The position numbers were made by a program, and so were the translations under genes. Positions 21,808 through 45,563 of a stretch of 64,000 nucleotides of DNA are shown piece after piece. The notes beneath the pieces are model-generated. The model saw only the letters and a program-made list of their open reading frames with translations, had not been told where the DNA came from and did no database searches. Numbering within the stretch: the first letter of the stretch is position 1; the number at the start of each line of letters is the position of its first letter. Source of the stretch: Nocardia thailandica NBRC 100428 (GTDB lineage: Bacteria; Actinomycetota; Actinomycetes; Mycobacteriales; Mycobacteriaceae); contig NZ_BAGK01000188.1 in NCBI RefSeq assembly GCF_000308795.1, forward strand, positions 1 to 64,000. Reading direction: 5' to 3'.

Positions 21808-22674
21808 CTCGCCCCTCCCCCTTGCGTCGTCGAAACGCCGACCAGCGGTGGAATCGCATGTCGACCGGTGCACGCGCCCATCCTCAGCCACACTTGAAGC
21901 TCGCACCAAACGCCGCCGTCAACCGATATCGTTTCTTTATATTGAGCGCACGGCAATTGGGCAGTTACCACCGCGAAGCATTACCCGCCGCCGCCGGATA
22001 CGTTGACCCGCAGCTTGTTCCGCGAAACGAAATTACTTCCAGTCGAGATCGAGTATGCTCTACCGCCGACCGCGGTGACCCCCGTCACAATTCGCCGGGC
22101 GGCCGCCCGGCCCGGCGCCGGCCCGGCGCCGTTGATCAGCGCCGGACTCCCGCACGGGTCCGGCCCGCCCACCCGCGCGAACGCCGCGGCCCGACGCACC
22201 CGCGCATCCTCCGCCTGCCCGGCCGCCGCACCGCGCCGACCTCGGGGATATTCGCCCTCCCGGCCGAATTCAGACCCGGATACGGCACCCTGTGCGCGCG
22301 GTCACATTTCGGGATAAACGGCGGCGCGCACACGGTCCGCGACACGCACGGCGAACGCATACGACGGGCCGAAAATATCCGGCGCGGATGTGTTAACAAA
22401 TGTAAACCGCCGGAGAAGCACCGGTTTCCGAAGCTTCACCATCGCGTGCCGGACACGCCCCACGGCGGGGTCACCGCGCCACGGAGCGCGACGTTTTCCC
22501 AGGTCGGGGTGGCCGGGAGCGCATCGGGGCGACGGCGGTAGATGACCGGCAGATTTCGGCGACCTCACAACGCACAGGCCCCTTTCGCGCATTGTGAGAA
22601 GTTCGTTTTGCGGCGCGAATTCGGCTCCTTACAGTGTCCCCATCAGCCCGGTTCAACAGCTCGAAGGGGGCGTC
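21808..22674. other. 867-bp non-coding region between XRE regulator and narG
   Basis: No convincing gene. It is more AT-rich than its surroundings in patches. Visible elements: TATAAA on the - strand (21941-21936); TATGCT (22054-22059) on the + strand; a GTGAC-CCCC-GTCAC palindrome (22075-22088); TGTTAACA (22391-22398); and the narG promoter region near the right end. Short frames of 70-100 codons here have random composition and poor starts. Confidence 0.6.
22564..22635 (+). promoter_or_regulatory. narG promoter with flanking inverted half-sites
   Basis: -35 TTGCGG (22608-22613), 16-base spacer, -10 TACAGT (22630-22635). Just upstream lies an inverted pair CTCACAA (22564-22570) and TTGTGAG (22592-22598), 21 bases apart, a candidate operator. 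The start codon follows 39 bases after the -10, with AAGGGGG as ribosome-binding site. Confidence 0.45.
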
Positions 22675-25600
22675 GTGGTCAATTCACGCACTCAGGGAAC
22701 GTCGCCCGCGACGGCCGGCGCAGGCGATGTATTGCTGAGCCTGGGCAAATACTTCCAGCGCGGTGAGGTCTCGTCCGATCAGCGTTCGGTGTTCAAGACC
22801 GGAGGCCGCCGGGCCGACGAGTTCTACCGGGACCGCTGGAGCCACGACAAGGTCGTGCGCTCCACCCACGGCGTCAACTGTACGGGCTCGTGCTCCTGGA
22901 AGATCTACGTCAAGGACGGCGTGATCACCTGGGAGTCCCAGCAGACCGACTACCCCTCCGTCGGCTCGGACAAGCCCGAGTACGAACCGCGCGGCTGTCC
23001 GCGCGGCGCCTCGTTCTCCTGGTACACCTACTCCCCCGCACGCGTGCGCTACCCATACGTGCGCGGCGTCCTGCTCGACCTGTACCGCAAGGCCAAGACC
23101 GAACTGAAGGATCCGGTGCTGGCCTGGGAGTCCATCGTCGAGGACCCGGTCAAGGCCAAGACCTACAAGAACGCGCGCGGCAAGGGCGGATTCGTGCGCG
23201 CGGAGTGGTGGGAGGCGGCCGAGATGGCCGCCGCGGCCCACGTGCACACGATCAAGCGGTACGGGCCCGACCGCGTCGCCGGGTTCTCGCCGATCCCGGC
23301 CATGTCGATGGTCTCCCACGCCACCGGGGCCCGGTTCGTCTCGCTGCTCGGCGGCTACATGCTCTCCTTCTACGACTGGTACGCCGACCTGCCCGTCGCC
23401 TCCCCGCAGGTCTTCGGCGACCAGACCGACGTGCCGGAGTCGGCCGACTGGTTCGACGCGGGCTACCTGATCATGTGGGGCTCCAACGTCCCGGTGACCC
23501 GGACCCCGGACGCGCACTACATGACCGAGGCCCGCTACCGCGGCCAGAAGGTCGTGGTCGTCTCCCCCGACTACGCCGACAACACGAAGTTCGCCGACGA
23601 GTGGGTGCCCGCGCGCCCCGGCACCGACGCCGCCCTGGCCATGGCCATGGGTCACGTGGTGCTCAAGGAGTTCTTCGTCGACCGCAGCACCGCGCCGTTC
23701 GACGACTACATCAAGCGCTACACCGACCTGCCGTACCTGATCTGCCTCGACGAGGCGGCGGACCGGGGCGGCGCCGTGCCCGGCAAGTTCCTCACCGCCG
23801 CCGACCTCGGAGAGACCGGCGAGGGCGCCGAGCACAAGCCGGTGCTGCTCGACCAGGCCGGAAACCCGGTGGTGCCCAACGGTTCCCTCGGCCACCGCTT
23901 CACCAAGGCCGACGCGGGCAAGTGGAACCTCGACCTCGAGGGCGTCGACCCGCTGCTGACCCTGCACGGGCAGGACGGCGGGGACGCGGCCGAACTGGTG
24001 CTGCCGCGCTTCGACACCGACGGCGCGGGCACCATCGTGCGCGGCGTCCCGACGACGATCGTCGCGGGCAAGCGCGTCACCACCGTCTTCGACCTGCTGC
24101 TCGCCCAGTACGGCGTCGGCCGCGCCGGACTGCCGGGGCGGTGGGCCACCGGCTACGACGACGCCGACTCGCCCTACACCCCGGCCTGGCAGGAGGCCAT
24201 CACCGGCGTGCCCGCCGCGCAGGCCGCGCGGATCGGACGCGAATTCGCCGACAACGCCGAGAAGTCCGGCGGCCGCTCGATGATCCTGATGGGCGCGGGC
24301 ACCAACCACTGGTTCCACTCCGACCAGATCTACCGCGCCTTCTTCACCCTCACGCTGCTCACCGGCTGCCAGGGCGTGAACGGCGGCGGCTGGGCGCACT
24401 ACGTGGGCCAGGAGAAGTGCCGCCCGGTCACCGGCTGGCAGACCCTGGCCAGCGCCAACGACTGGCAGCGCCCGCCGCGCCAGATGCAGGGCACCGTGTT
24501 CTGGTACCTGACCAACGACCAGTGGCGCTACGACCCCTTCAGCTCCGAGACCTTCGCCTCCCCGCTGGGCACCGGCCGGTTCGCCGGGCGCACCGCCGCC
24601 GACAACATCGCCCTGGCCTCGCGGCTGGGCTGGATGCCGAGCTACCCGACCTTCGACCGCAACCCCCTCGACCTGGTCGACGAGGCCGAGGCGGCCGGCG
24701 TCAGCCCCGCCGACCACGTGGTCGACGGGCTGAAGTCCGGTGACCTGCGCTTCGCCTGCGAGGATCCCGACGCGCCCGAGAACTTCCCGCGCGTGCTCAC
24801 CGTGTGGCGGGCCAACCTGCTCGGCTCCTCCGGCAAGGGCAACGAGTACTTCCAGAAGCACCTGCTCGGCTGCGGGTCCAACCTCCAGACCACCGACGCC
24901 ACCGGCGTGCGCCCGCAGGAACTGGTGTGGCGCGAGGAAGGCGCCGAGGGCAAGCTGGATCTGCTGCTGGCGCTGGACTTCCGCATGACCAGCACCACCC
25001 TGTTCGCCGACATCGTGCTGCCCGCGGCCACCTGGTACGAGAAGCACGACCTGTCCTCCACCGACATGCACCCGTTCGTGCACGCCTTCTCCCCGGCCAT
25101 CTCCCCGCCGTGGGAGGCCAAGACCGACTTCGAGGCGTTCCACCGCATCGCGCGCGGGTTCTCCTGGCTGGCCGAGAAGCACCTCGGCACCCGCCGCGAC
25201 CTCGTCGCGGTGCCGTTGCAGCACGACTCCCCCGACGCGCTCGCCCAGGCGGGCGGCCGGGTGCTGGACTGGAAAGCCGGTGAGTGCGAGCCGATCCCGG
25301 GCAAGACCATGCCCAAGCTGGTGGTGGTCGAACGCGACTACACCAAGATCGCGGAGAAGCTGGCCGCGCTCGGCCCGCTCGTCGACACCCTCGGCGTGAC
25401 CACCAAGGGCATCACCACCTACCCCGACGCCGAGGTCGAGTACCTCGCGGGCAAGAACGGCACCGTCGTCTCCGGCGTCGCGGCGGGCAGGCCGTCGCTG
25501 GCCAAGGACACCTACGCGGCGGAGACCATCCTCGCCCTGTCCGGCACGACCAACGGGCGCCTCGCCGTGGAAGGCTTCCACGCCCTGGAACGGCGCACCG

Positions 25601-36773: not shown

Positions 36774-37541
36774 TCAGCCCACGTTCGCCAGGGCGCGCAC
36801 GGCGGCGCGGTAGCGGTCGGCGATGAGCCCGACCACGGCCGGGTGCACGCCGATCGGTTCGGCGACCCCGTCCGCGCCCGCCTCGTGCAGGCGCTGGTGG
36901 AACAGGCCGTGGGCGAGCAGATACGAGGCGACGAACACGCGCCGGGCACCGGCGGAACGCAGGTCGGCGACCACGTCGGCCACCCGGGGCGCGCCGGTGG
37001 CCACGTAACCGATCCGTACCGGCGTCGCGAGCCGTTCGGCGAGCATGTCCGCGGCGCGGCGCACGTCGGCGAGGGCGCGCGGGTCCGAGGACCCGGCGGC
37101 CGCGAAGACCACCGCGTCGCCGGGGCGCCACCCCGCCGCCCGCAGGCGCAGCGCCATGACCCCGGCCAGCGCCGGGTCCGGTCCCATGGCGGCGGTGACC
37201 GCCACCGCCGGGTGACCGCTCTCGGCGACCTCGCGCGGCACGTCCTGGTAGACGTGGTAACCCGAGGCCAGGAAGGCCGGGACCACCACGGCGCCACCGG
37301 TTTCCGGCCCGGCCGCCAGGTCGCCGAGGACCTCCGACGGGGTCGGGCCGAGCACGTCGACGAAGGCCGTGCGCAGGGCCGGGTTGGGTGCCGCGTGCCC
37401 GGCGTCGCGCCCCGCCACCGCGGCGCCGAGTTCGTGCGAGACCGCCTCGGCCAGCGCGGCGATCATCTCCACCCCGCGCGGGCTGCGGGTGCCGTGCGCG
37501 ACGAGCACCAGGGCGGGCACGCCGTCCCGCCCGGCCGTCAC
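36774..37541 (-). CDS. sirohydrochlorin chelatase-like protein (CbiX family)
   Basis: A 255-residue protein with two CbiX-type halves: VLVAHGTRSPRGVEM near the N-terminus (metal/substrate His) and a second half with VFVASYLLAHGLFHQRL. The family inserts cobalt or iron into sirohydrochlorin. Its GTG overlaps the nnaR stop and it ends the nir operon, so it most likely supplies siroheme for NirB. Rv0259c next to Rv0260c in M. tuberculosis is the remembered equivalent. Confidence 0.85.
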   Translation of the reverse strand: MTAGRDGVPALVLVAHGTRSPRGVEMIAALAEAVSHELGAAVAGRDAGHAAPNPALRTAFVDVLGPTPSEVLGDLAAGPETGGAVVVPAFLASGYHVYQDVPREVAESGHPAVAVTAAMGPDPALAGVMALRLRAAGWRPGDAVVFAAAGSSDPRALADVRRAADMLAERLATPVRIGYVATGAPRVADVVADLRSAGARRVFVASYLLAHGLFHQRLHEAGADGVAEPIGVHPAVVGLIADRYRAAVRALANVG

Positions 37542-38779
37542 CACGCCCCCATCGGCTGGGCGTAGCGCGCGGTCCGGACCGGCGTGCCGATCCCGGCCGC
37601 ATGCGGCGGCTGGACCGGCGGACGCGGCGGGTTGTCGTTGCACTCGGCCGCGTCCAGCGCGAGGCGGTACCCGCGCTTCACCACGGTCTGGATGGCCTTG
37701 GGCGTCCCGAGGCCCGCCCGCAGCCGGGCGATGGCCGTCTCCACCGCGTGCGTGTCGTCCCCGCCGCCGGGCAGCGCGCCCAGCAGGTCCTCGCGGGAGA
37801 CCACCCGGCCGGGCTGCCGGGCCAGCGACCGCATCAGCGCCATCGGCGCGGGCGCCAGCTGGCGCACCTGGCCGTCGACCACGACGCAGCCGCCGCGCAC
37901 GCTGATCAGGTGCCCGGCCGCGTAGATGCGCGAGGCGCGCCGCGGCAGTTCCTCGGCGACGTGGCGGGCCAGCGCCCCGAGCCGGGCACGACCCGGCATC
38001 GACGTCGGCACGCCCAGCTCCTCGAGCGGGGCCGCGGTGATCGGGCCGACGCAGGCGGCCAGCACCCGGCCTCGCAGCGCGTGCAGCAGCGACTCGAGCA
38101 GCCCGGTCTCCTTGGCCCGCATCAGCATCGAGGCCACGGCGGGCGCGCTGGTGAAGGTGACGCAGTCGAGGCTGCCGGAGATGATCGACTCGATCATGGT
38201 GTCCATCGGGCCGCGGTCGGCGGGCGGCTCCCAGCGGTAGACCGGCACCGGCACCACGTCGGCGCCCGCGCAGCGCAGCACCTCGCAGAAGTCGGGCACC
38301 GGCTCCCACTCCGTCGTCGCGCCGTGCAGCTGCACCGCGATCCGCACGCCCTCCACGCCCTCGGCGAGCAGGTGATCGAGCACCTCGGCGGAGGACTCCG
38401 ACGCGGGCGACCACTCCTCGCGGAGCTCGGCGGCGCGGATGGCGCCCTTGGCCTTCGGGCCGCGGGCCAGCATGCGGGTCGAGGCCAGCGTGGTGCGCAG
38501 GTCCTCGGCCAGGCCCCAACCCTCGGCCGCCTCCATCCAGCCGCGGAAGCCGATACCGGTGGTGGCGACGGTGATCTGCGGCGGATCGGCGATCAGCTGC
38601 TCGGTGACGCGTTCGAGCTCGGTGTCGTCGGCGAGCGGGATGATCCGGATGGCGGGCGCGGACACGACGGTCGCGCCTTTGCGGTTGAGCAGGGTGGCGA
38701 ACTCGTCGGCGCGGCGGGCGGCGGTCACGCCGATCGTGAAGCCGGCCAGACACGCCGCGTTGTCGGTGGGCAGGGTCAT
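37538..38779 (-). CDS. nnaR: NnaR-type regulator: HemD-like domain + winged helix
   Basis: A 413-residue two-domain protein. Residues 1-270 resemble uroporphyrinogen-III synthase (FTIGVTAARRADEFATLL, TFTSAPAVASML, AACVGPITAAPLEELGV). Residues about 285-380 are an OmpR-type winged helix (ISVRGGCVVVDGQVRQLAPAPMALMRSLARQPGRVVSREDLL; VETAIARLRAGLG; IQTVVKRGYRLAL). NnaR of Streptomyces and M. smegmatis has this build and co-activates nitrate/nitrite assimilation with GlnR. It overlaps nirD (ATGA) upstream and the chelatase gene (GTGA) downstream. Confidence 0.88.
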   Translation of the reverse strand: MTLPTDNAACLAGFTIGVTAARRADEFATLLNRKGATVVSAPAIRIIPLADDTELERVTEQLIADPPQITVATTGIGFRGWMEAAEGWGLAEDLRTTLASTRMLARGPKAKGAIRAAELREEWSPASESSAEVLDHLLAEGVEGVRIAVQLHGATTEWEPVPDFCEVLRCAGADVVPVPVYRWEPPADRGPMDTMIESIISGSLDCVTFTSAPAVASMLMRAKETGLLESLLHALRGRVLAACVGPITAAPLEELGVPTSMPGRARLGALARHVAEELPRRASRIYAAGHLISVRGGCVVVDGQVRQLAPAPMALMRSLARQPGRVVSREDLLGALPGGGDDTHAVETAIARLRAGLGTPKAIQTVVKRGYRLALDAAECNDNPPRPPVQPPHAAGIGTPVRTARYAQPMGAW

Positions 38780-39165
38780 CCAGACACCTGCACCGGTTCG
38801 TTGGAGATCGAGACGATGCCGCCGTCGAGCTGCACCGCGTAGACCGGCAGCGACTGGCTCGCGTCGTCGAGGCAGCTGCCGTCGATCAGCGAGAAGGCCT
38901 GCTTGAGCAGGGGCGAGGCGACGACGGGAACGCCGCCGCGATCACCGACGATGCCGCGCGACATCACCGCGGCCCTGCCGAACGGGTCGATGTTGCCGAC
39001 GGCGGCCAGCGTGCCGTCGGGCAGCAGGAACAGCGCGGCCTGACGGCCACCCTTCAGCAGGACAGCCACGCCGCGGCCCGGAATCAGGAAGTCCAGCCGG
39101 CAGGCCTGGGTCCAGCCCGTGGTGGCCGTGCCGGGAGTGATGGTGGGTGTGTCGATAACGGTCAT
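38776..39165 (-). CDS. nirD: assimilatory nitrite reductase small subunit
   Basis: A 129-residue NirD with a Rieske-like fold lacking the cluster-binding Cys/His pairs, as in the family (WTQACRLDFLIPGRGVAVLLKG; NIDPFGRAAVMSRGIVGDRGG; SLPVYAVQLDGGIVSI). It partners NirB. GGAGGA lies before the ATG, 64 bases after the nirB stop. Confidence 0.94.
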   Translation of the reverse strand: MTVIDTPTITPGTATTGWTQACRLDFLIPGRGVAVLLKGGRQAALFLLPDGTLAAVGNIDPFGRAAVMSRGIVGDRGGVPVVASPLLKQAFSLIDGSCLDDASQSLPVYAVQLDGGIVSISNEPVQVSG

Positions 39166-39229
39166 CGGGTTCCTCCTCCGAACGCCTTACCTATTGGTAC
39201 CGGCGCCCTGTTTCCGCTGGGTTAAGCCT

Positions 39230-41767
39230 TTATTTCCCGGCCGAGACCGTGTCGGAAGGCACACTGGGCAGGCCGAGCAGCACAGGCACCTTGCGCTCGC
39301 CGCTGTCGTCGAAGGCGATCGTGGGATCGGCCTGGTCGGGGGCGTTGACGAAGGAGACGAAGCGCGAGAGCTTGTCCTCGTCCTCGAGCACCGCGGCCCA
39401 CTCGTCCTTGTAACCGGCGACGTGCTTGGCCATGGCTTCCTCCAGGTCGGCGGCGATGCCGAGGCTGTCGTCGCACACGACGGCCTTGAGGTAGTCCAGC
39501 CCGCCCTCGAGCGCCTCCTGCCAGGGCGCGGTGCGCTGCAGGCGATCGGCGGTGCGGATGTAGAACATCAGGTAGCGGTCGATGTAGCGGATCAGGGTCT
39601 CGTCGTCGAGCTCGCCTGCCAGCAGGACCGCGTGCTTGGGGGTCAGGCCGCCGTTGCCGCCGACGTAGAGGTTCCAGCCGTTCTCGGTGGCGATGACGCC
39701 GACGTCCTTGCCGCGGGCCTCGGCGCACTCGCGGGCGCAGCCGGAGACGGCCAGCTTGAGCTTGTGCGGCGACCGCAGGCCCCGGTAGCGCTTCTCCAGC
39801 AGCACGGCCATGCCGACCGAGTCCTGCTGGCCGTAGCGGCACCAGGTCGAGCCGACGCAGCTCTTGACCGTGCGCAGCGACTTGCCGTAGGCGTGCCCGG
39901 ACTCCATGCCCGCGTCGACCAGGCGCTTCCAGATCAGCGGCAGCTGGTCGACGGTGGCGCCGAACAGGTCGATGCGCTGACCACCGGTGACCTTGACGTA
40001 GAGGCCGAACTCCTTGGCGACCTCGCCGATGACGATCAGCTGCTCGGCGGTGACCTCGCCGCCGGGCATGCGCGGCACCACCGAGTAGGTGCCGTTCTTC
40101 TGCAGGTTGGCCAGGAAGTGGTCGTTGGTGTCCTGCAGGGCGGCCTGCTCGCCGTCGAGGATGTGGTCGCTCGAGGTGGAGGCCAGGATCGAGGCGACGG
40201 TCGGCTTGCAGATGTCGCAGCCCGAGCCCTTGCCGTACCGGGCGATCAGCTCGGAGAAGGTGCGGATGCCGGTGACGGCGACGATGTCGAACAGCTCGGC
40301 GCGCGAGTGCTCGAAGTGCTCGCACAGCGCCTTCGACAGGGCGACGCCGGACTGCTCGAGCAGCTTCTTGATCATCGGCACGCAGCCACCGCAGGACGTG
40401 CCCGCGTTGGTGCAGCTCTTGACCGAGGCGATGTCGCAGGCGCCCTCGGCGATGGCCCCGCAGATGGAACCTTTGCTGACGTTGTTGCAGGAGCAGATCT
40501 GCGCGTCGTCGGGCAGCGCGTCGGCGCCCAGCTCGGCGCCGGCCGGGGAGATCAGGGCGGCGGCGTCGGCGGGCAGCGGGCGGCCGACCAGCGGGCGCAG
40601 CGCCGCGTACTGGGAGGCGTCACCGACCAGGATGCCGCCGAGCAGGGTCTGCGCGTCGTCGGAGACGACCAGCTTGGCGTAGGTGCCCTTGGCCGCGTCG
40701 TGCAGCACGACCTCGAGGGCACCCTCGGTCGTCGCGTGCGCGTCACCGAAGGACGCGACGTCGACGCCCATCAGCTTCAGCTTGGTCGACATGTCCGCGC
40801 CGGGGAACTCGCCCGCGCCGCCGAGCAGGCGGTCGGCGACGATCTCGGCGGTGGTGTAGCCCGGGGCGACCAGGCCGTAGCAGACACCCTCGATCGCGGC
40901 GCACTCGCCGATCGCGTAGACGTCCGGGTCCGAGGTCCGCAGGGCGAGGTCGGTCAGGACGCCGCCGCGAGCACCGATCTCGAGGCCGGCGGCCTTGGCC
41001 AGCGCGTCGTGCGGGCGGATGCCCGCCGAGAACACGACCAGCGAGGCGTTGATCTCGGACTCGTCCGACAGGTGCAGGGTGACGTTGTGGTCGCTCTCCT
41101 CCTCGATCGAGACGATCCGGGCCGTGCCGACGCCGGTGTGCACGTTCAGGCCGATGTCGGTGACCAGCTTCTCCAGGATCGCGCCGCCGCCCGCGTCGAC
41201 CTGGGCGGGCATCAGGCGGTCGTTGTACTCGATGACGTGCGGGGTCATGCCCATCAGCCGCAGCGCGTTGGCGGCTTCCAGGCCGAGCAGGCCGCCACCG
41301 ACGACGACGCCGTGCGCGCCGGGACCGGCGGCCTCGGCGGCGGCGCGGATGCCGTCGAGGTCGTCGATGGTGCGGTAGACGAAACATTCGGGCAGGTCGT
41401 GGCCGGGCACCGGCGGCACGAACGGGTAGGAGCCGGTCGCCAGGACCAGCGCGTCGTAGGCGATGACGTCGCCGTTGGAGCTGGTGACGGTCTTGGCCGC
41501 GGTGTCGATGGCCTCGCCGCGCTGGCCGAGCCGCAGGTCGACCAGGGCGTCGCCGTCGTAGGTGTTGCCCGGGAGCGCGAGCTCCTCGGCCTTCCAGCTG
41601 CCGACGTAGTACGACAGGCCGACCCGGTCGTAGGCGGGCAGCTTCTCCTCCGAGAGGATGACGACCTGCCACCGACCGGCCTCGTCGCGGGCGCGCAGGG
41701 CCTCGACGAAGCGGTGACCGACCATGCCGTGGCCGACCACGACCACTGTCTTGCGAGTGCTGTTCAT
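39230..41767 (-). CDS. nirB: assimilatory nitrite reductase large subunit
   Basis: An 845-residue NAD(P)H-dependent siroheme enzyme reducing nitrite to ammonium. Order: FAD/NADH-binding part (VVGHGMVGHRFVEAL; VVVGGGLLGLEAANAL), BFD-type 2Fe-2S cysteines (CSCNNVSKGSIC near 424, then CTNAGTSCGGC), and the siroheme/4Fe-4S part with cysteines in KSCVGSTWC (about 634) and SGCARECAEA (about 674). GGAGG precedes the ATG. narK ends only 26 bases upstream, so narK-nirB-nirD-nnaR-chelatase form one operon. Confidence 0.96.
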   Translation of the reverse strand: MNSTRKTVVVVGHGMVGHRFVEALRARDEAGRWQVVILSEEKLPAYDRVGLSYYVGSWKAEELALPGNTYDGDALVDLRLGQRGEAIDTAAKTVTSSNGDVIAYDALVLATGSYPFVPPVPGHDLPECFVYRTIDDLDGIRAAAEAAGPGAHGVVVGGGLLGLEAANALRLMGMTPHVIEYNDRLMPAQVDAGGGAILEKLVTDIGLNVHTGVGTARIVSIEEESDHNVTLHLSDESEINASLVVFSAGIRPHDALAKAAGLEIGARGGVLTDLALRTSDPDVYAIGECAAIEGVCYGLVAPGYTTAEIVADRLLGGAGEFPGADMSTKLKLMGVDVASFGDAHATTEGALEVVLHDAAKGTYAKLVVSDDAQTLLGGILVGDASQYAALRPLVGRPLPADAAALISPAGAELGADALPDDAQICSCNNVSKGSICGAIAEGACDIASVKSCTNAGTSCGGCVPMIKKLLEQSGVALSKALCEHFEHSRAELFDIVAVTGIRTFSELIARYGKGSGCDICKPTVASILASTSSDHILDGEQAALQDTNDHFLANLQKNGTYSVVPRMPGGEVTAEQLIVIGEVAKEFGLYVKVTGGQRIDLFGATVDQLPLIWKRLVDAGMESGHAYGKSLRTVKSCVGSTWCRYGQQDSVGMAVLLEKRYRGLRSPHKLKLAVSGCARECAEARGKDVGVIATENGWNLYVGGNGGLTPKHAVLLAGELDDETLIRYIDRYLMFYIRTADRLQRTAPWQEALEGGLDYLKAVVCDDSLGIAADLEEAMAKHVAGYKDEWAAVLEDEDKLSRFVSFVNAPDQADPTIAFDDSGERKVPVLLGLPSVPSDTVSAGK

Positions 41768-41793: not shown

Positions 41794-43245
41794 TTATCGG
41801 CGAGCCGACGACGTGGCCGACGAAGCGGATTCGGCCTCGAGGACCAGGTTCTCGGCCTCGACCACGACAGCGGAGTCGGAGACCACGGACGACGAGGGGC
41901 GGCGCAGGAACACGGCCCAGGTGACCGCCGCGCAGAGCACGTAGAAGCCGAGGAACACCATGAACGCGGTGGTCGCCGAGGCGGTGGTCGCGTAGGAGGT
42001 GCGCAGCGCCAGGTTGATGCCGACGCCGCCGAGGGCGCCGATGGCGCCGACGAAACCGATGAGGGCGCCGGAGGTGTTCTGCGACCAGGCGGCCTGCTCG
42101 GCGGGGGTGCCGGGCAGCGAGCGGGACTTGGCGTCGAACACCGACGGGATGATCTTGGTGACGGCGCCGTTGCCGAAGCCGGAGAGCACGAACAGGGCGA
42201 TGAAACCGACGGTCAGCGCCACCATCACCCCGCCCGTCGCGACACCTTTGTTCGCGTCCGCCCGGGAGCTGGCGACCACGACGACCAGCGTGGCGGCCAT
42301 CATCGCGAAGAAGGTCGCGATGGCGACCCGCGAGCCGCCGACACGGTCGGCCAGCTTGCCGCCGTAGGGGCGGGAGATCGAGCCGAGCAGCGGGCCGATG
42401 AACGCGATCGAGGCGGCGTGCACGGCGGCCTGGGCGGCGGTGTCGCCGCCTGCCTTGAAGCTGATCTGCAGGATCTGGCCGAAGGCGAAGCTGTAGCCGA
42501 TGAACGAGCCGAAGGTGCCGATGTAGAGGAAGGCGATCGCCCACGACTGCGGCACCCGCAGGGCCTTGACCATGTAGGACAGGTCGGCCTTCTGGTTGCG
42601 CAGGTTGTCCATGTACAGGGCCGCGCCGACGCCGGCGACGCCGATCAGGACCAGGTAGACCGCGCAGATGATCGAGGCGTAGCCCTGGCCGAGGGTGGCC
42701 AGCACCAGCAGGCCGAGCAGCTGGATGACCGGCACGCCGATGTTGCCGCCGCCCGCGTTGAGGCCGAGGGCGAAGCCCTTGAGCCGCTGCGGGTAGAAGG
42801 CGTTGATGTTGGTCATCGAGGAGGCGAAGTTGCCGCCGCCGACGCCGGCGAAGGCCGCCACGATCAGGAACGTCGTGTAGGACGTGCCGGGCTGGTTGAC
42901 GAAGTACAGCGTCAGCACCATCGGGATCAGCAGCAGGAAGGCGCTGAAGATGGTCCAGTTGCGGCCGCCGAAGCGGGCCGTCGCCACGGTGTAGGGGATG
43001 CGCAGGAACGCCCCGACCAGGGTCGGCATGGCGACCAGGAAGAACTTGCCCGCCGGGTCGATACCGAACTCGTCCTGCGGCATGAACAGCACCATCACCG
43101 ACCACACCGACCACACCGAGAACCCGACGTGCTCGGCGAACACCGACCAGATCAGGTTCCGCCTGGCGATGTCCTTGCCGCCTGCCTCCCAGGCCGCGAC
43201 ATCTTCGGCATCCCAGTGCTCGATGTCGTGGTTACGCTTGCTCAC
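41794..43245 (-). CDS. narK: NarK-type nitrate/nitrite transporter
   Basis: A 483-residue MFS protein with 12 predicted helices and nitrate-signature segments GVGGGNFASSMTNINAFYPQRLKGFALGLNAGGGN and FVLSGFGNGAVTKIIP. It should import nitrate and/or exchange nitrite for the NirBD pathway encoded downstream. GTG start with GGGAGG 5 bases before it. Controlled, most likely, by the GlnR-like box at 43374-43400. Confidence 0.93.
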   Translation of the reverse strand: MSKRNHDIEHWDAEDVAAWEAGGKDIARRNLIWSVFAEHVGFSVWSVWSVMVLFMPQDEFGIDPAGKFFLVAMPTLVGAFLRIPYTVATARFGGRNWTIFSAFLLLIPMVLTLYFVNQPGTSYTTFLIVAAFAGVGGGNFASSMTNINAFYPQRLKGFALGLNAGGGNIGVPVIQLLGLLVLATLGQGYASIICAVYLVLIGVAGVGAALYMDNLRNQKADLSYMVKALRVPQSWAIAFLYIGTFGSFIGYSFAFGQILQISFKAGGDTAAQAAVHAASIAFIGPLLGSISRPYGGKLADRVGGSRVAIATFFAMMAATLVVVVASSRADANKGVATGGVMVALTVGFIALFVLSGFGNGAVTKIIPSVFDAKSRSLPGTPAEQAAWSQNTSGALIGFVGAIGALGGVGINLALRTSYATTASATTAFMVFLGFYVLCAAVTWAVFLRRPSSSVVSDSAVVVEAENLVLEAESASSATSSARR

Positions 43246-43373
43246 TCCGGCCTCCCGATTTCCTCGATGAAGCCACGGTAGGAAATCGGTATTGCCGAAA
43301 TGCTGCGGGAAATGTCGCGCGAATCAACGGTTTCTCACGAATACCCGACCGGCGGCGTGAGAACACACGCTTT

Positions 43374-43400
43374 GTTTCGGCCGTGTGACACAACGGTTTC
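43374..43400 (-). promoter_or_regulatory. GlnR-like box upstream of narK-nirBD operon
   Basis: On the - strand the site reads GAAAC-N6-GTCAC-N6-GAAAC (43400-43396, 43389-43385, 43378-43374), matching the alternating GaAAC / GTnAC pattern with 6-base spacing known for GlnR boxes. A lone GAAAC-CGTTG half-site lies nearer the gene (43334-43325). A TACCGT -10 candidate is at 43280-43275. Confidence 0.6.
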
Positions 43401-43500: not shown

Positions 43501-43542
43501 CAAAAAGAATGCGCTCCGCCACACGAGCGTGTGGCGGAGCGC
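43501..43542 (-). terminator. strong intrinsic terminator after MFS gene
   Basis: Perfect 14-base stem (43511-43524 / 43529-43542) with a GAGC loop; on the - strand it is followed by a T-rich run (ATTCTTTTTG), the classic rho-independent form. It ends the gene at 43560-44822. Confidence 0.85.
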
Positions 43543-43559: not shown

Positions 43560-44822
43560 TCACCACGTGTCCTCGAGCATGCGCGGCTTGCAGGCCACCC
43601 AGGCACCGGCCAGCAGCACCGCCAGCGCGACGGTGAGCATGGCGAAGGGGGCGAGCCAGCCGCCGGTGGCGGTGTGCAGCATGCCGAACAGCAGCGGGCC
43701 CGCGCAGGCGACCGCGTAGCCGACGCCCTGGGTGAAGCCCGACAGCGCCGCGGAACCGTGGGCGGTGCGGGTGCGCAGGTTGATCAGGGTCAGTGCCATC
43801 GGGAAGGTCGACGGGCCGAGACCGAGCAGCACCACCCAGAGCACGGGCACGCTCATCGGCGCGATCAACAGCCCGGCGAAGGCGACGAGGAACAGGGCGA
43901 CGCAGCCGACGACGAGGGGGAACGGATTGCGCATGCGGGAGATCAGGGTGGGCGCGGTCAGCGCGGGCACGAGGCCCATCAGAGCGAACAGCCCGACCAT
44001 CGCGCCGCCGAACCCGTCGCTCGCGCCGGCGTCGCCCAGGATCGCGGGCAGCCACGCGAAGACCGCGTAGGTGGTCAGCGACGTCATGCCGAACATGCCC
44101 GCCATGCCCCAGGCGACCGGGGACCGCCACGCCTTGTCCGCGGCGGCGGGCGTCTCGGCGGGCAGTGCGGTGACGTCGGCCCGGTCGTGGCCGCGCCGGT
44201 CGCGCAGCACGCCGATCCACGGCAGCGCCGCGGCGAAGCCGATCAGCGCCCACACGCCGAGCGAGATGCGCCAGCCGTGCGCCTGCGCCAGCGGCACCGC
44301 GACGAAGGCCGGGATGACGGTGCCCAGCTGCACCATGACGATGTAGAGCGAGCTCAGGACCGCGAGCCGGTCCGGGAAGTACCGCTTGACCAGGGGCGGG
44401 ATGACGATGTTGCCCATGCCCATGCCCATCAGCGCGACCGCGGAGAAGATCAGCAGGTCGCCGGTGCCGGACAGGAAGGCGCGCACGCCCATGCCCAGTC
44501 CCGCCAGCAGCATGGCCAGCAGGGCGGTGCGCTCGAGGCCGTAGCGGCGGGCGACGAGGGGCGCGATCAGGCCCGACAGCGCGAACATCGCGGTGGGCAG
44601 CATGCCGAACACGCCGATCGCGGCGGTGCCGTAGCCGATGTCGGCGCCGATGCGCTCGGCCAGCGGACTGAACGAGGTGACCGCGACCCGCAGGGTGAGC
44701 GCCGAGACCACGATCGCCGCCAGTACCAGGAGCCGTCCCTCGACCAGGGCGCGGACGCGACGCTGCGGTGCGTCATGGCCGGTGGGGGCGGGGGTTCTGG
44801 TCTCGGGAAGCGTCGCAGTCAC
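43560..44822 (-). CDS. MFS transporter, CynX/NimT-like
   Basis: A 420-residue major-facilitator protein with 12 helices; SALTLRVAVTSFSPLAERIGADIG, MGMGMGNIVIPPLVKRYFP and LGLGPSTFPMALTLINLRTRT are typical of the CynX/NimT (cyanate / 2-nitroimidazole) branch. Direction and substrate are unknown. The GTG at 44822 is chosen because TATGAT lies 6 bases upstream with a TTGCAC -35 at 17 bases; a GTG one codon earlier is equally possible. It is divergent from a GntR gene that probably controls it. Confidence 0.85.
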   Translation of the reverse strand: MTATLPETRTPAPTGHDAPQRRVRALVEGRLLVLAAIVVSALTLRVAVTSFSPLAERIGADIGYGTAAIGVFGMLPTAMFALSGLIAPLVARRYGLERTALLAMLLAGLGMGVRAFLSGTGDLLIFSAVALMGMGMGNIVIPPLVKRYFPDRLAVLSSLYIVMVQLGTVIPAFVAVPLAQAHGWRISLGVWALIGFAAALPWIGVLRDRRGHDRADVTALPAETPAAADKAWRSPVAWGMAGMFGMTSLTTYAVFAWLPAILGDAGASDGFGGAMVGLFALMGLVPALTAPTLISRMRNPFPLVVGCVALFLVAFAGLLIAPMSVPVLWVVLLGLGPSTFPMALTLINLRTRTAHGSAALSGFTQGVGYAVACAGPLLFGMLHTATGGWLAPFAMLTVALAVLLAGAWVACKPRMLEDTW

Positions 44823-44828
44823 CACGAA

Positions 44829-44857: not shown

Positions 44858-44888
44858 TAGGTTTGTGATCAGCGGTACCCTGTCCTTC

Positions 44889-45563
44889 GTGCAACCCGTC
44901 CGGCGGAACAGCCTCATCGCCCAGGTCACCGAAGCGCTGCGTGCCGAGATCCGTTCCGGCCGTTGGCCGATCGGTCATCGCATCCCCACCGAACCGGAGC
45001 TCACCGAGCTCACCGGGACCGGGCGCAACACCGTGCGCGAAGCGGTCCAGGCCCTCGTCCACGCCGGCATGCTCGAACGCCGCCAGGGTTCGGGCACCTA
45101 TGTGATCGCCACCTCCGAGGTCGGCGGCACCCTGGCCAAGTACTTCGCCGACGCCCACGAGCGCGACATCCTCGAGCTGCGCGAGGCACTGGACACCACC
45201 GCCGCCGGCCTGGCCGCGCGCCGCCGCGACGAGACCGACATCGCCACGCTGCGCCGCCTGCTCGCCGAACGGAACTCCCGCGACTGGTCCGCGCCGGACC
45301 CGCTGGCCATCGCCGCCGACGTCGAACTGCATCGCGCGATCGTGGTCGCCAGCCACAACGCGGTATACCTGGAGTTCTACGATTCGCTGCTGCCCGCGAT
45401 CGAACAGGCCATCCACACCCGCGCCACCCGCTCCGACGACGCCTACGACACCGAACACGACGAACTCGTGCAGGCCGTCATCGACGGCGACGCGGAACGG
45501 GCGATGCAGGCGACCCGCTGCTTCCTCGGTTCGCTGCTGGCCGACTACCCCGAGCGCGGCTGA
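44889..45563 (+). CDS. GntR-family regulator, FadR/FCD subfamily
   Basis: A 224-residue regulator. The N-terminal winged helix (RNSLIAQVTEALRAEIRSGRWPIGHRIPTEPELTEL; GRNTVREAVQALVHAGMLERRQGSGTYV) precedes an all-helical FCD ligand domain (LELREALDTTAAGLAARRRDETD; ADVELHRAIVVASHNAVYLEFYDSLLPAIEQAI) with metal-ligand-type Asp/His residues. GTG at 44889 lies 7 bases after TACCCT, a leaderless arrangement; GTG at 44865 would add eight residues. Confidence 0.88.
   Translation: MQPVRRNSLIAQVTEALRAEIRSGRWPIGHRIPTEPELTELTGTGRNTVREAVQALVHAGMLERRQGSGTYVIATSEVGGTLAKYFADAHERDILELREALDTTAAGLAARRRDETDIATLRRLLAERNSRDWSAPDPLAIAADVELHRAIVVASHNAVYLEFYDSLLPAIEQAIHTRATRSDDAYDTEHDELVQAVIDGDAERAMQATRCFLGSLLADYPERG

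Follow-up and report, generated by a model that had tools for sequence, protein, structure and literature searches.

Introduction

The closest described counterpart of the operon analysed here is narK3-nirBD-nnaR-sirB of M. abscessus, which matches it in all five genes and in their arrangement, has an NnaR palindrome before narK3 and was found by RT-PCR to be transcribed as one mRNA (PMC11162112, available part). In the same part of that paper, internal promoters are not excluded, and the expression of sirB is not explained by a single NnaR-driven mRNA and would need an internal promoter. In M. smegmatis, an NnaR motif is followed downstream by a GlnR motif and then by the transcription start (PMC6277429, PMC3662644, in the parts available), and separate GlnR peaks are described for nirBD, which is divergent, nnaR and narK3; the ChIP peak at nnaR (42.9) is higher than those at nirB (8.4) and narK3 (8.4) in the available text of PMC3662644. 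In S. coelicolor, GlnR activates nnaR, and binding of the nirB promoter by NnaR and GlnR is cooperative (Amin et al. 2012, as cited in the parts available of PMC10704036, PMC6277429 and PMC11162112). As far as the available parts of PMC10704036, PMC6277429, PMC3662644 and PMC11162112 go, it is unsettled how NnaR is first supplied if nnaR is itself part of the operon that NnaR activates.

Here, we describe the corresponding locus in a 64,000-nucleotide stretch of the Nocardia thailandica NBRC 100428 genome (contig NZ_BAGK01000188.1; hereafter, the window). The circuit is a Nocardia variant of the GlnR-NnaR circuit published for Streptomyces and mycobacteria, and its likeness to that of S. coelicolor lies in the predicted path from GlnR to nnaR and in the predicted joint control by NnaR and GlnR. 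The useful additions are a corrected anatomy of the control region, a putative internal GlnR-like promoter and a predicted NnaR site before narGHJI. No title on a narK-nirBD-nnaR operon in Nocardia was found in searches of mostly open literature with Nocardia, GlnR and nitrite reductase.

From 155 NnaR-encoding stretches, we kept the 80 best for comparison; all 80 are from Nocardia, and several come from one species. Seven of the 80 were dropped from the analysis of narK upstream regions, i.e. L025, L030, L033, L034 and L036, which have no narK before nirB and were examined apart, L016, which meets a contig end, and L061, which has no narK; the remaining 73 loci together with the window gave 74 narK upstream regions.

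Organization of the locus

Open reading frames and family scans confirm that the minus strand carries narK-nirB-nirD-nnaR-chelatase in this order, as had been read from the sequence (Table 1). The last three genes are tightly joined, with nirD and nnaR overlapping by ATGA and nnaR and the chelatase gene by GTGA. The original prediction that the operon encodes NnaR also holds, as the protein combines the N-terminal PF02602 domain (residues 25-270) with the C-terminal PF00486 domain (residues 306-373), and its relatives in named Nocardia are 84-93% identical among the best 80 of the 155 stretches. Because a strong terminator-like hairpin separates the operon from the upstream cynX-like gene, narK is likely the first gene. 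The CynX-like transporter is a neighbour in 73 of the 80 Nocardia loci, and some of the others end at a contig boundary. Two genomes of the same family (L138, L142) have an additional short match to nnaR, which follows another copy of narK.

Table 1. Positions of genes and predicted control elements in the window.
Feature	Position	Strand	Description
NnaR-type palindrome before narG	22571..22598	+	left arm CGCAC (1 mismatch)
-10-like element before narG	22630-22635	+	TACAGT
Chelatase gene	36774..37541	-	CbiX family, SirB-like; PF01903 89 bits
nnaR	37538..38779	-	HemD-like and OmpR-type DNA-binding domains; PF02602, PF00486; PRK07239 598 bits
nirD	38776..39165	-	nitrite reductase small subunit; TIGR02378 78 bits, above cut-off
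Predicted internal -10	39193..39199	-	TACCAAT, separated from GAAAC by 10 bp; predicted transcription start near 39187
Internal GlnR-like box	39210..39236	-	GAAAT-n6-TTAAC-n6-GAAAC; overlaps nirB stop codon; predicted site
nirB	39230..41767	-	nitrite reductase large subunit; TIGR02374 1081.7 bits
narK	41794..43245	-	nitrate/nitrite MFS transporter; TIGR00886 254 bits, under the 311.7 cut-off
Predicted -10 of narK promoter	43275..43280	-	TACCGT; predicted transcription start near 43268
Promoter-proximal GlnR-like half-site array	43291..43327	-	TTGAT-n6-GACAT ... GCAGC-n6-GCAAT; degenerate; same-family register
NnaR palindrome	43334..43361	-	CTCAC-N18-GTGAG; matches the motif in PMC6277429 and PMC11162112 (available parts); predicted site
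Upstream GlnR box	43374..43400	-	b-a-b, GAAAC-n6-GTCAC-n6-GAAAC; feature of the original prediction; predicted site
Terminator-like hairpin after cynX-like gene	43511..43542	-	14 pairs and T-run
CynX-like transporter gene	43560-44825	-	adjoins operon
Divergent GntR/FCD-type regulator gene	44865-45563	+	adjoins operon

A glnR gene is present in the genome (C287, L104; ORF 985-1836 of L104). Among PDB entries, its product matches 4o1h ('Transcription regulator GlnR') with an E value of 3.7e-32, and its top match is 8hih ('Transcriptional regulatory protein', E 1.5e-115), which we take to be the GlnR activation complex of M. tuberculosis; among the best 25 of 38 NCBIfam matches, no model exceeded its cut-off with this product. 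The gene is located close to one end of its contig, and mshD is found where another contig (L093) begins; the assembly has probably split two neighbours here, presumably in the glnR-mshD arrangement known from mycobacteria.

A classic GlnR target is glnA1. Upstream of glnA1 in this genome (TIGR00653), we found the array GTAAC-n6-GAAAC-n6-TTGAC-n6-GAAAC-n10-TACCGT, a b-a-b array of the same layout as the upstream GlnR box. From this array, we derived, in this analysis and without a source in the papers, the rule that a GlnR-dependent promoter would have a b-site directly before the -10 element, as in GAAAC-n10-TACCGT. At the two ammonium-transporter loci, no b-n9/11-TA match was found, so that amtB is of no use as a control and glnA1 is the only positive control from the genome itself.

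The NnaR palindrome and the core of the narK promoter

The NnaR motif is printed as CTCAC, 18 bases and GTGAG in the available parts of PMC6277429, where its form is c-t-C-A-C-a/c-(16N)-t/g-G-T-G-a-g, and of PMC11162112, where 15-18 bases are permitted between the arms. The palindrome in the window has the 18-base form, for which 0.06 occurrences per window are expected, and begins 12 bp downstream of the upstream GlnR box. Each of the 74 Nocardia narK upstream regions has it, and a search that permitted N14-19 returned N18 every time. In the whole genome, exact palindromes occur at 6 places, which is near chance; therefore, the evidence is the conservation in place, and the palindrome was rejected as a genome-wide target finder. 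No nitrogen gene was recognized by eye in the flanks of the 5 other exact copies. A second promoter inside the palindrome (TATTCG) was rejected because it is not conserved.

Downstream of the palindrome, the narK upstream regions share a core block, AACCGTTGATT..GTCATTT..GCAGCAT..GCAATACC..TTTCCTACC. Counted from GTGAG, GCAAT is found at +43 and TACC.T, TAAC.T or TACG.T at +58, each in 74 of 74 regions. With GCAAT as the b-site, the proximal array follows the promoter rule and has the b-n10-TACCGT spacing in common with glnA1. Its half-sites are degenerate, and we name it a putative GlnR site because of its register and its same-family counterparts: at loci of other genera, in a comparison that took in only places with such a -10 element, the same register reads GTGAG-n6-GTGAC-n6-GTCAC/ATCAC and then GCGAC-n6-GCAAC/T, n10 and TACCGT or similar, with shifts of one base in L132 and L133 and of two bases at the nirB promoter of L128. 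The register also agrees with the order published for M. smegmatis. A scan with the sigma-70 consensus returned 0 promoters, as expected for activator-dependent promoters. In the five narK-less Nocardia, N. brasiliensis among them, there is no narK between cynX and nirB, and the NnaR-plus-core promoter is kept directly before nirB, with a clear upstream GlnR box in three of the five and a degraded one in two.

It had been proposed that GlnR, acting on the box ahead of the operon, and the NnaR made from that operon form a feedback. The feedback is suggested by the NnaR palindrome in all 74 regions, not by the GlnR box.

A predicted GlnR-like promoter inside the operon

A scan for further boxes, which the original prediction had proposed, revealed a second GlnR-like box within this operon, located between nirB and nirD. 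When up to 2 mismatches to GAAAC-n6-GTNAC-n6-GAAAC are allowed, these two boxes are the only matches in the window, compared with 0.09 expected from shuffled sequences, and two matches were reached in 1 of 100 shuffles.

The internal box, taken as GAAAT-n6-TTAAC (or GTAAT)-n6-GAAAC, was found within 110 bp of nirD in 78 of 81 loci (72 with 2 mismatches, 6 with 3), and its start lies 70-75 bp before nirD in all 78. When the three initial misses were searched again over up to 320 bp, the box was recovered at -139 (L053) and -138 (L054) relative to the assigned nirD start, each time with 2 mismatches, bringing the total to 80 of 81; L061, for which 135 bp were available, showed no box. TACC stands exactly n10 after the box in 75 of the 78 and TATC in one; the other two have no TA there. 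Thus, the internal box conforms to the rule that relates b-site and -10 element (GAAAC-n10-TACCAAT).

Beyond Nocardia, we surveyed 39 nnaR starts from 38 loci, the 17 same-family loci being those other than two Nocardia. In 12 of these 17, nnaR or nirD-nnaR is preceded by a box that has at most 3 mismatches, with TA at exactly n10 in 11 of the 12; when 2280 stretches of 303 bp were drawn at random from the same loci, 0.65% had such a box. In the other 5 of the 17, no box was found (at least 5 mismatches). Outside the family, 3 of 22 nnaR starts have a box, each with 3 mismatches, i.e. there is no clear counterpart. Where nnaR comes after narK rather than after nirD, the box is found immediately upstream of nnaR; thus, the box tracks nnaR through rearrangement.

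An alternative is that the element between nirB and nirD acts as an RNA hairpin or ribosome-site element, such that nnaR would be made only from the narK promoter, in the simple feedback originally envisaged. Indeed, the GAAAT of the box overlaps nirB codons, TACC lies within a possible RNA hairpin, and the spacer between the box and the nirD ribosome site contains a conserved hairpin, ACGCC...GGCGT (39180-39208, minus strand), whose stem has two-sided changes at two pairs with a covariation score above all 500 shuffles and is retained in L044 and L047, in which TACC is lost. This alternative would have to account for the conservation of the half-sites TTAAC/GTAAT and GAAAC outside the stem and for the equivalent boxes before nnaR in rearranged loci without an intervening nirD. 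Moreover, two inner pairs of the hairpin are broken in 7-8 of 35 sequences while TACC is near-invariant, its pairing partner is more variable than TACC itself, and the spacer hairpin has no Rfam match. We therefore regard an exclusive role as an RNA element as unlikely, and we infer that the internal box is part of a GlnR-driven promoter for nirD-nnaR-sirB. In the same spacer, an IdeR-like reading of TAGGTAAGGC, compared with what we take to be the IdeR motif, was dropped because many relatives break the motif.

Set beside the question of sirB expression in M. abscessus, the conserved internal GlnR-like promoter proposed here would lie ahead of nirD-nnaR-sirB. In M. smegmatis, nnaR has a GlnR peak of its own; in the window, the genes form one operon, and the predicted GlnR box for nnaR lies before nirD. 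As a consequence, the claim that the regulator is produced from the operon holds in so far as the operon encodes NnaR, but the narK promoter would not be required for its production, given the second conserved GlnR-like box and the -10-like element.

The upstream GlnR box as a probable accessory site

The box that drew attention to the locus reads GAAACCGTTGTGTCACACGGCCGAAAC on the minus strand, i.e. GAAAC-n6-GTCAC-n6-GAAAC with CGTTGT and ACGGCC as spacers, exactly as originally given. It agrees with the published GlnR pattern (PMC10704036, PMC3662644, in the parts available) in having 5-bp half-sites (gTnAC/GaAAC) at an exact 11-bp pitch, and all three half-sites have the adenine at position 4 that is called irreplaceable in the available part of PMC10704036. 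The box is the sole match with 0 mismatches in its own genome (G000, 6,820,093 bases, 311 contigs); the next-best matches, at 5 places, have 2 mismatches each.

Among the 74 Nocardia narK upstream regions, the box is present with up to 2 mismatches in 65 and with up to 3 in 68, and an A followed by C or T occupies positions 4-5 of all three half-sites in 70. The start-to-start distance from box to NnaR palindrome is 39 bp in 62 of the 68, 38 bp in 2 and 29 bp in 4; the last are N. cyriacigeorgica loci, in which it is about one helical turn shorter. In the 62 loci selected for a box at 39 bp, the half-site columns contain 1.80 bits and the 12-bp gap 0.69 bits, and the gap sequence is distinct in 45 of the 62, with the distinct sequences averaging 46% identity.

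A scan for the composite of box and palindrome at fixed spacing, which would miss species with the 38- or 29-bp register, gave a hit in 36 of 52 genomes of the genus Nocardia and in 1 of 349 from other genera of the family; it gave none in 16 of the 52 and 348 of the 349. A reversed control pattern was found in 1 of 401 genomes. The lone hit outside Nocardia does lie upstream of narK, in a locus from a different genus that shares the gene order, and its GlnR box is degenerate. M. abscessus, known here only from the available part of PMC11162112, differs from the window in that the window has the additional GlnR box upstream of the NnaR palindrome. Apparently, the box was gained in the Nocardia lineage. 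In 6 of the 74 regions, the box has more than 3 mismatches and the NnaR palindrome and the core are retained; because the box is lost or degraded in some Nocardia while NnaR site and core persist, it is not essential.

The box was thus correctly read as a match to the GlnR pattern ahead of the operon, and it is conserved in most Nocardia examined, but it is upstream of the NnaR palindrome and not the promoter-proximal GlnR site. The distance from its 3' end down to the GTG start codon of narK is 129 bp, and that to the predicted transcription start is about 106 bp; the box is, therefore, clear of the predicted promoter. As the narK promoter has its own weak, putative proximal GlnR-like array, the box would be a second, stronger site upstream. 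Judged by sequence and conservation, it is a real conserved GlnR site that is predicted to be accessory to the NnaR site.

The box could instead be bound mainly by another regulator of the OmpR family with a near-identical motif, MtrA or PhoP. MtrA and GlnR have nearly identical motifs and DNA-binding domains, and MtrA binds the mycobacterial nirB promoter (PMC6277429, available part); in addition, the genome has 21 matches to OmpR-type DNA-binding domains. The GAAAC b-sites, however, match those of the glnA1 array of the same genome, the box belongs to a nitrogen operon with NnaR and nirBD, and in M. smegmatis GlnR is found by ChIP at nirB, nnaR and narK3 (PMC3662644, available part), which together make a predominantly non-GlnR occupant quite improbable. 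With its three half-sites, the box is a strong array in the orientation of the operon, which might also suggest a GlnR-dependent promoter of its own, giving a longer transcript that starts before the NnaR palindrome. Such a promoter is very improbable, as the box, unlike those of glnA1 and narK, is not followed by a b-site-to--10 arrangement: neither the window nor the relatives listed with the box have TAnnnT 10 bp past the last half-site, and the following 12 bp are the least conserved part apart from the interior of the palindrome. Finally, that the box is a relic, similar by inheritance and without present function, would fit its absence or degradation in some Nocardia and at fixed spacing in nearly all other-genus genomes of the family, but is highly unlikely given half-sites that are conserved across a diverged linker of near-constant length.

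A model for the control of nitrite reduction genes

We consider it likely that GlnR alone starts nirD-nnaR-sirB, that NnaR and GlnR then switch on the whole operon, and that the upstream GlnR box is an accessory site in a composite control region. In this model, in which binding, the direction of regulation, transcription starts and cooperation are read from the observed sequences, their conservation and their fixed registers, GlnR would become active under nitrogen limitation and act at the internal promoter GAAAT-n6-TTAAC-n6-GAAAC-n10-TACCAAT, giving nirD-nnaR-sirB transcripts and, as a consequence of GlnR action alone, NnaR and the siroheme chelatase. NnaR on its palindrome and GlnR on the weak proximal sites would then direct transcription of narK-nirB-nirD-nnaR-sirB, and a positive feedback loop would close because nnaR lies inside the activated operon. 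On the operon strand, the predicted order is GlnR box, 12-bp gap, NnaR palindrome, weak proximal GlnR half-sites, -10 element TACCGT and narK. The upstream box would probably raise the local occupancy by GlnR and cooperate with NnaR on a fixed helix face.

For the question of how NnaR is first supplied, the internal box offers a precise, testable sequence. Similarly, with its fixed registers, the narK upstream region is a compact natural system for testing how one promoter may be shared by two regulators of the OmpR type.

narGHJI as a predicted NnaR target

The window contains narG and narH on the plus strand (TIGR01580 and TIGR01660, both above cut-off); narG probably starts at 22675, and the ORFs after narH resemble narJ and narI by eye. 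Before narG, an NnaR-type palindrome is closely preceded by an additional CTCAC half-site (region 22564-22635, plus strand). We scanned 30 Nocardia loci, the window included, from matches in 39 of 40 genomes, and the palindrome, placed relative to TAC..T, was found in all 30. The distance from GTGAG to TAC..T is 36 bp in 29 of these (22 exact with N18, 7 with one mismatch) and 37 bp in one (exact). In this genome, only the narG of the window, among 10 molybdopterin loci, has the palindrome at the tested distances from TA...T.

Based on this arrangement, narGHJI appears to be controlled by NnaR and to have no clear GlnR site, and it is added here as a predicted NnaR target in Nocardia. No report of NnaR control of narGHJI was found among the listed papers that name both, mostly from the open literature, or in the available part of PMC6277429.

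More tentatively, and with somewhat less than even confidence, three promoter types may be built from the same parts, i.e. GlnR only at the internal promoter, a GlnR-NnaR-GlnR sandwich at narK and NnaR only at narGHJI, such that GlnR would start NnaR, NnaR alone would open nitrate reduction and both would open nitrite reduction, with the upstream box phase-locked to NnaR. In this scheme, the narG promoter would correspond to the narK promoter with two 11-bp half-sites removed: the NnaR arm lies 36 bp before the -10 element at narG and 58 bp before it at narK, a difference of exactly 22 bp, or two GlnR half-sites.
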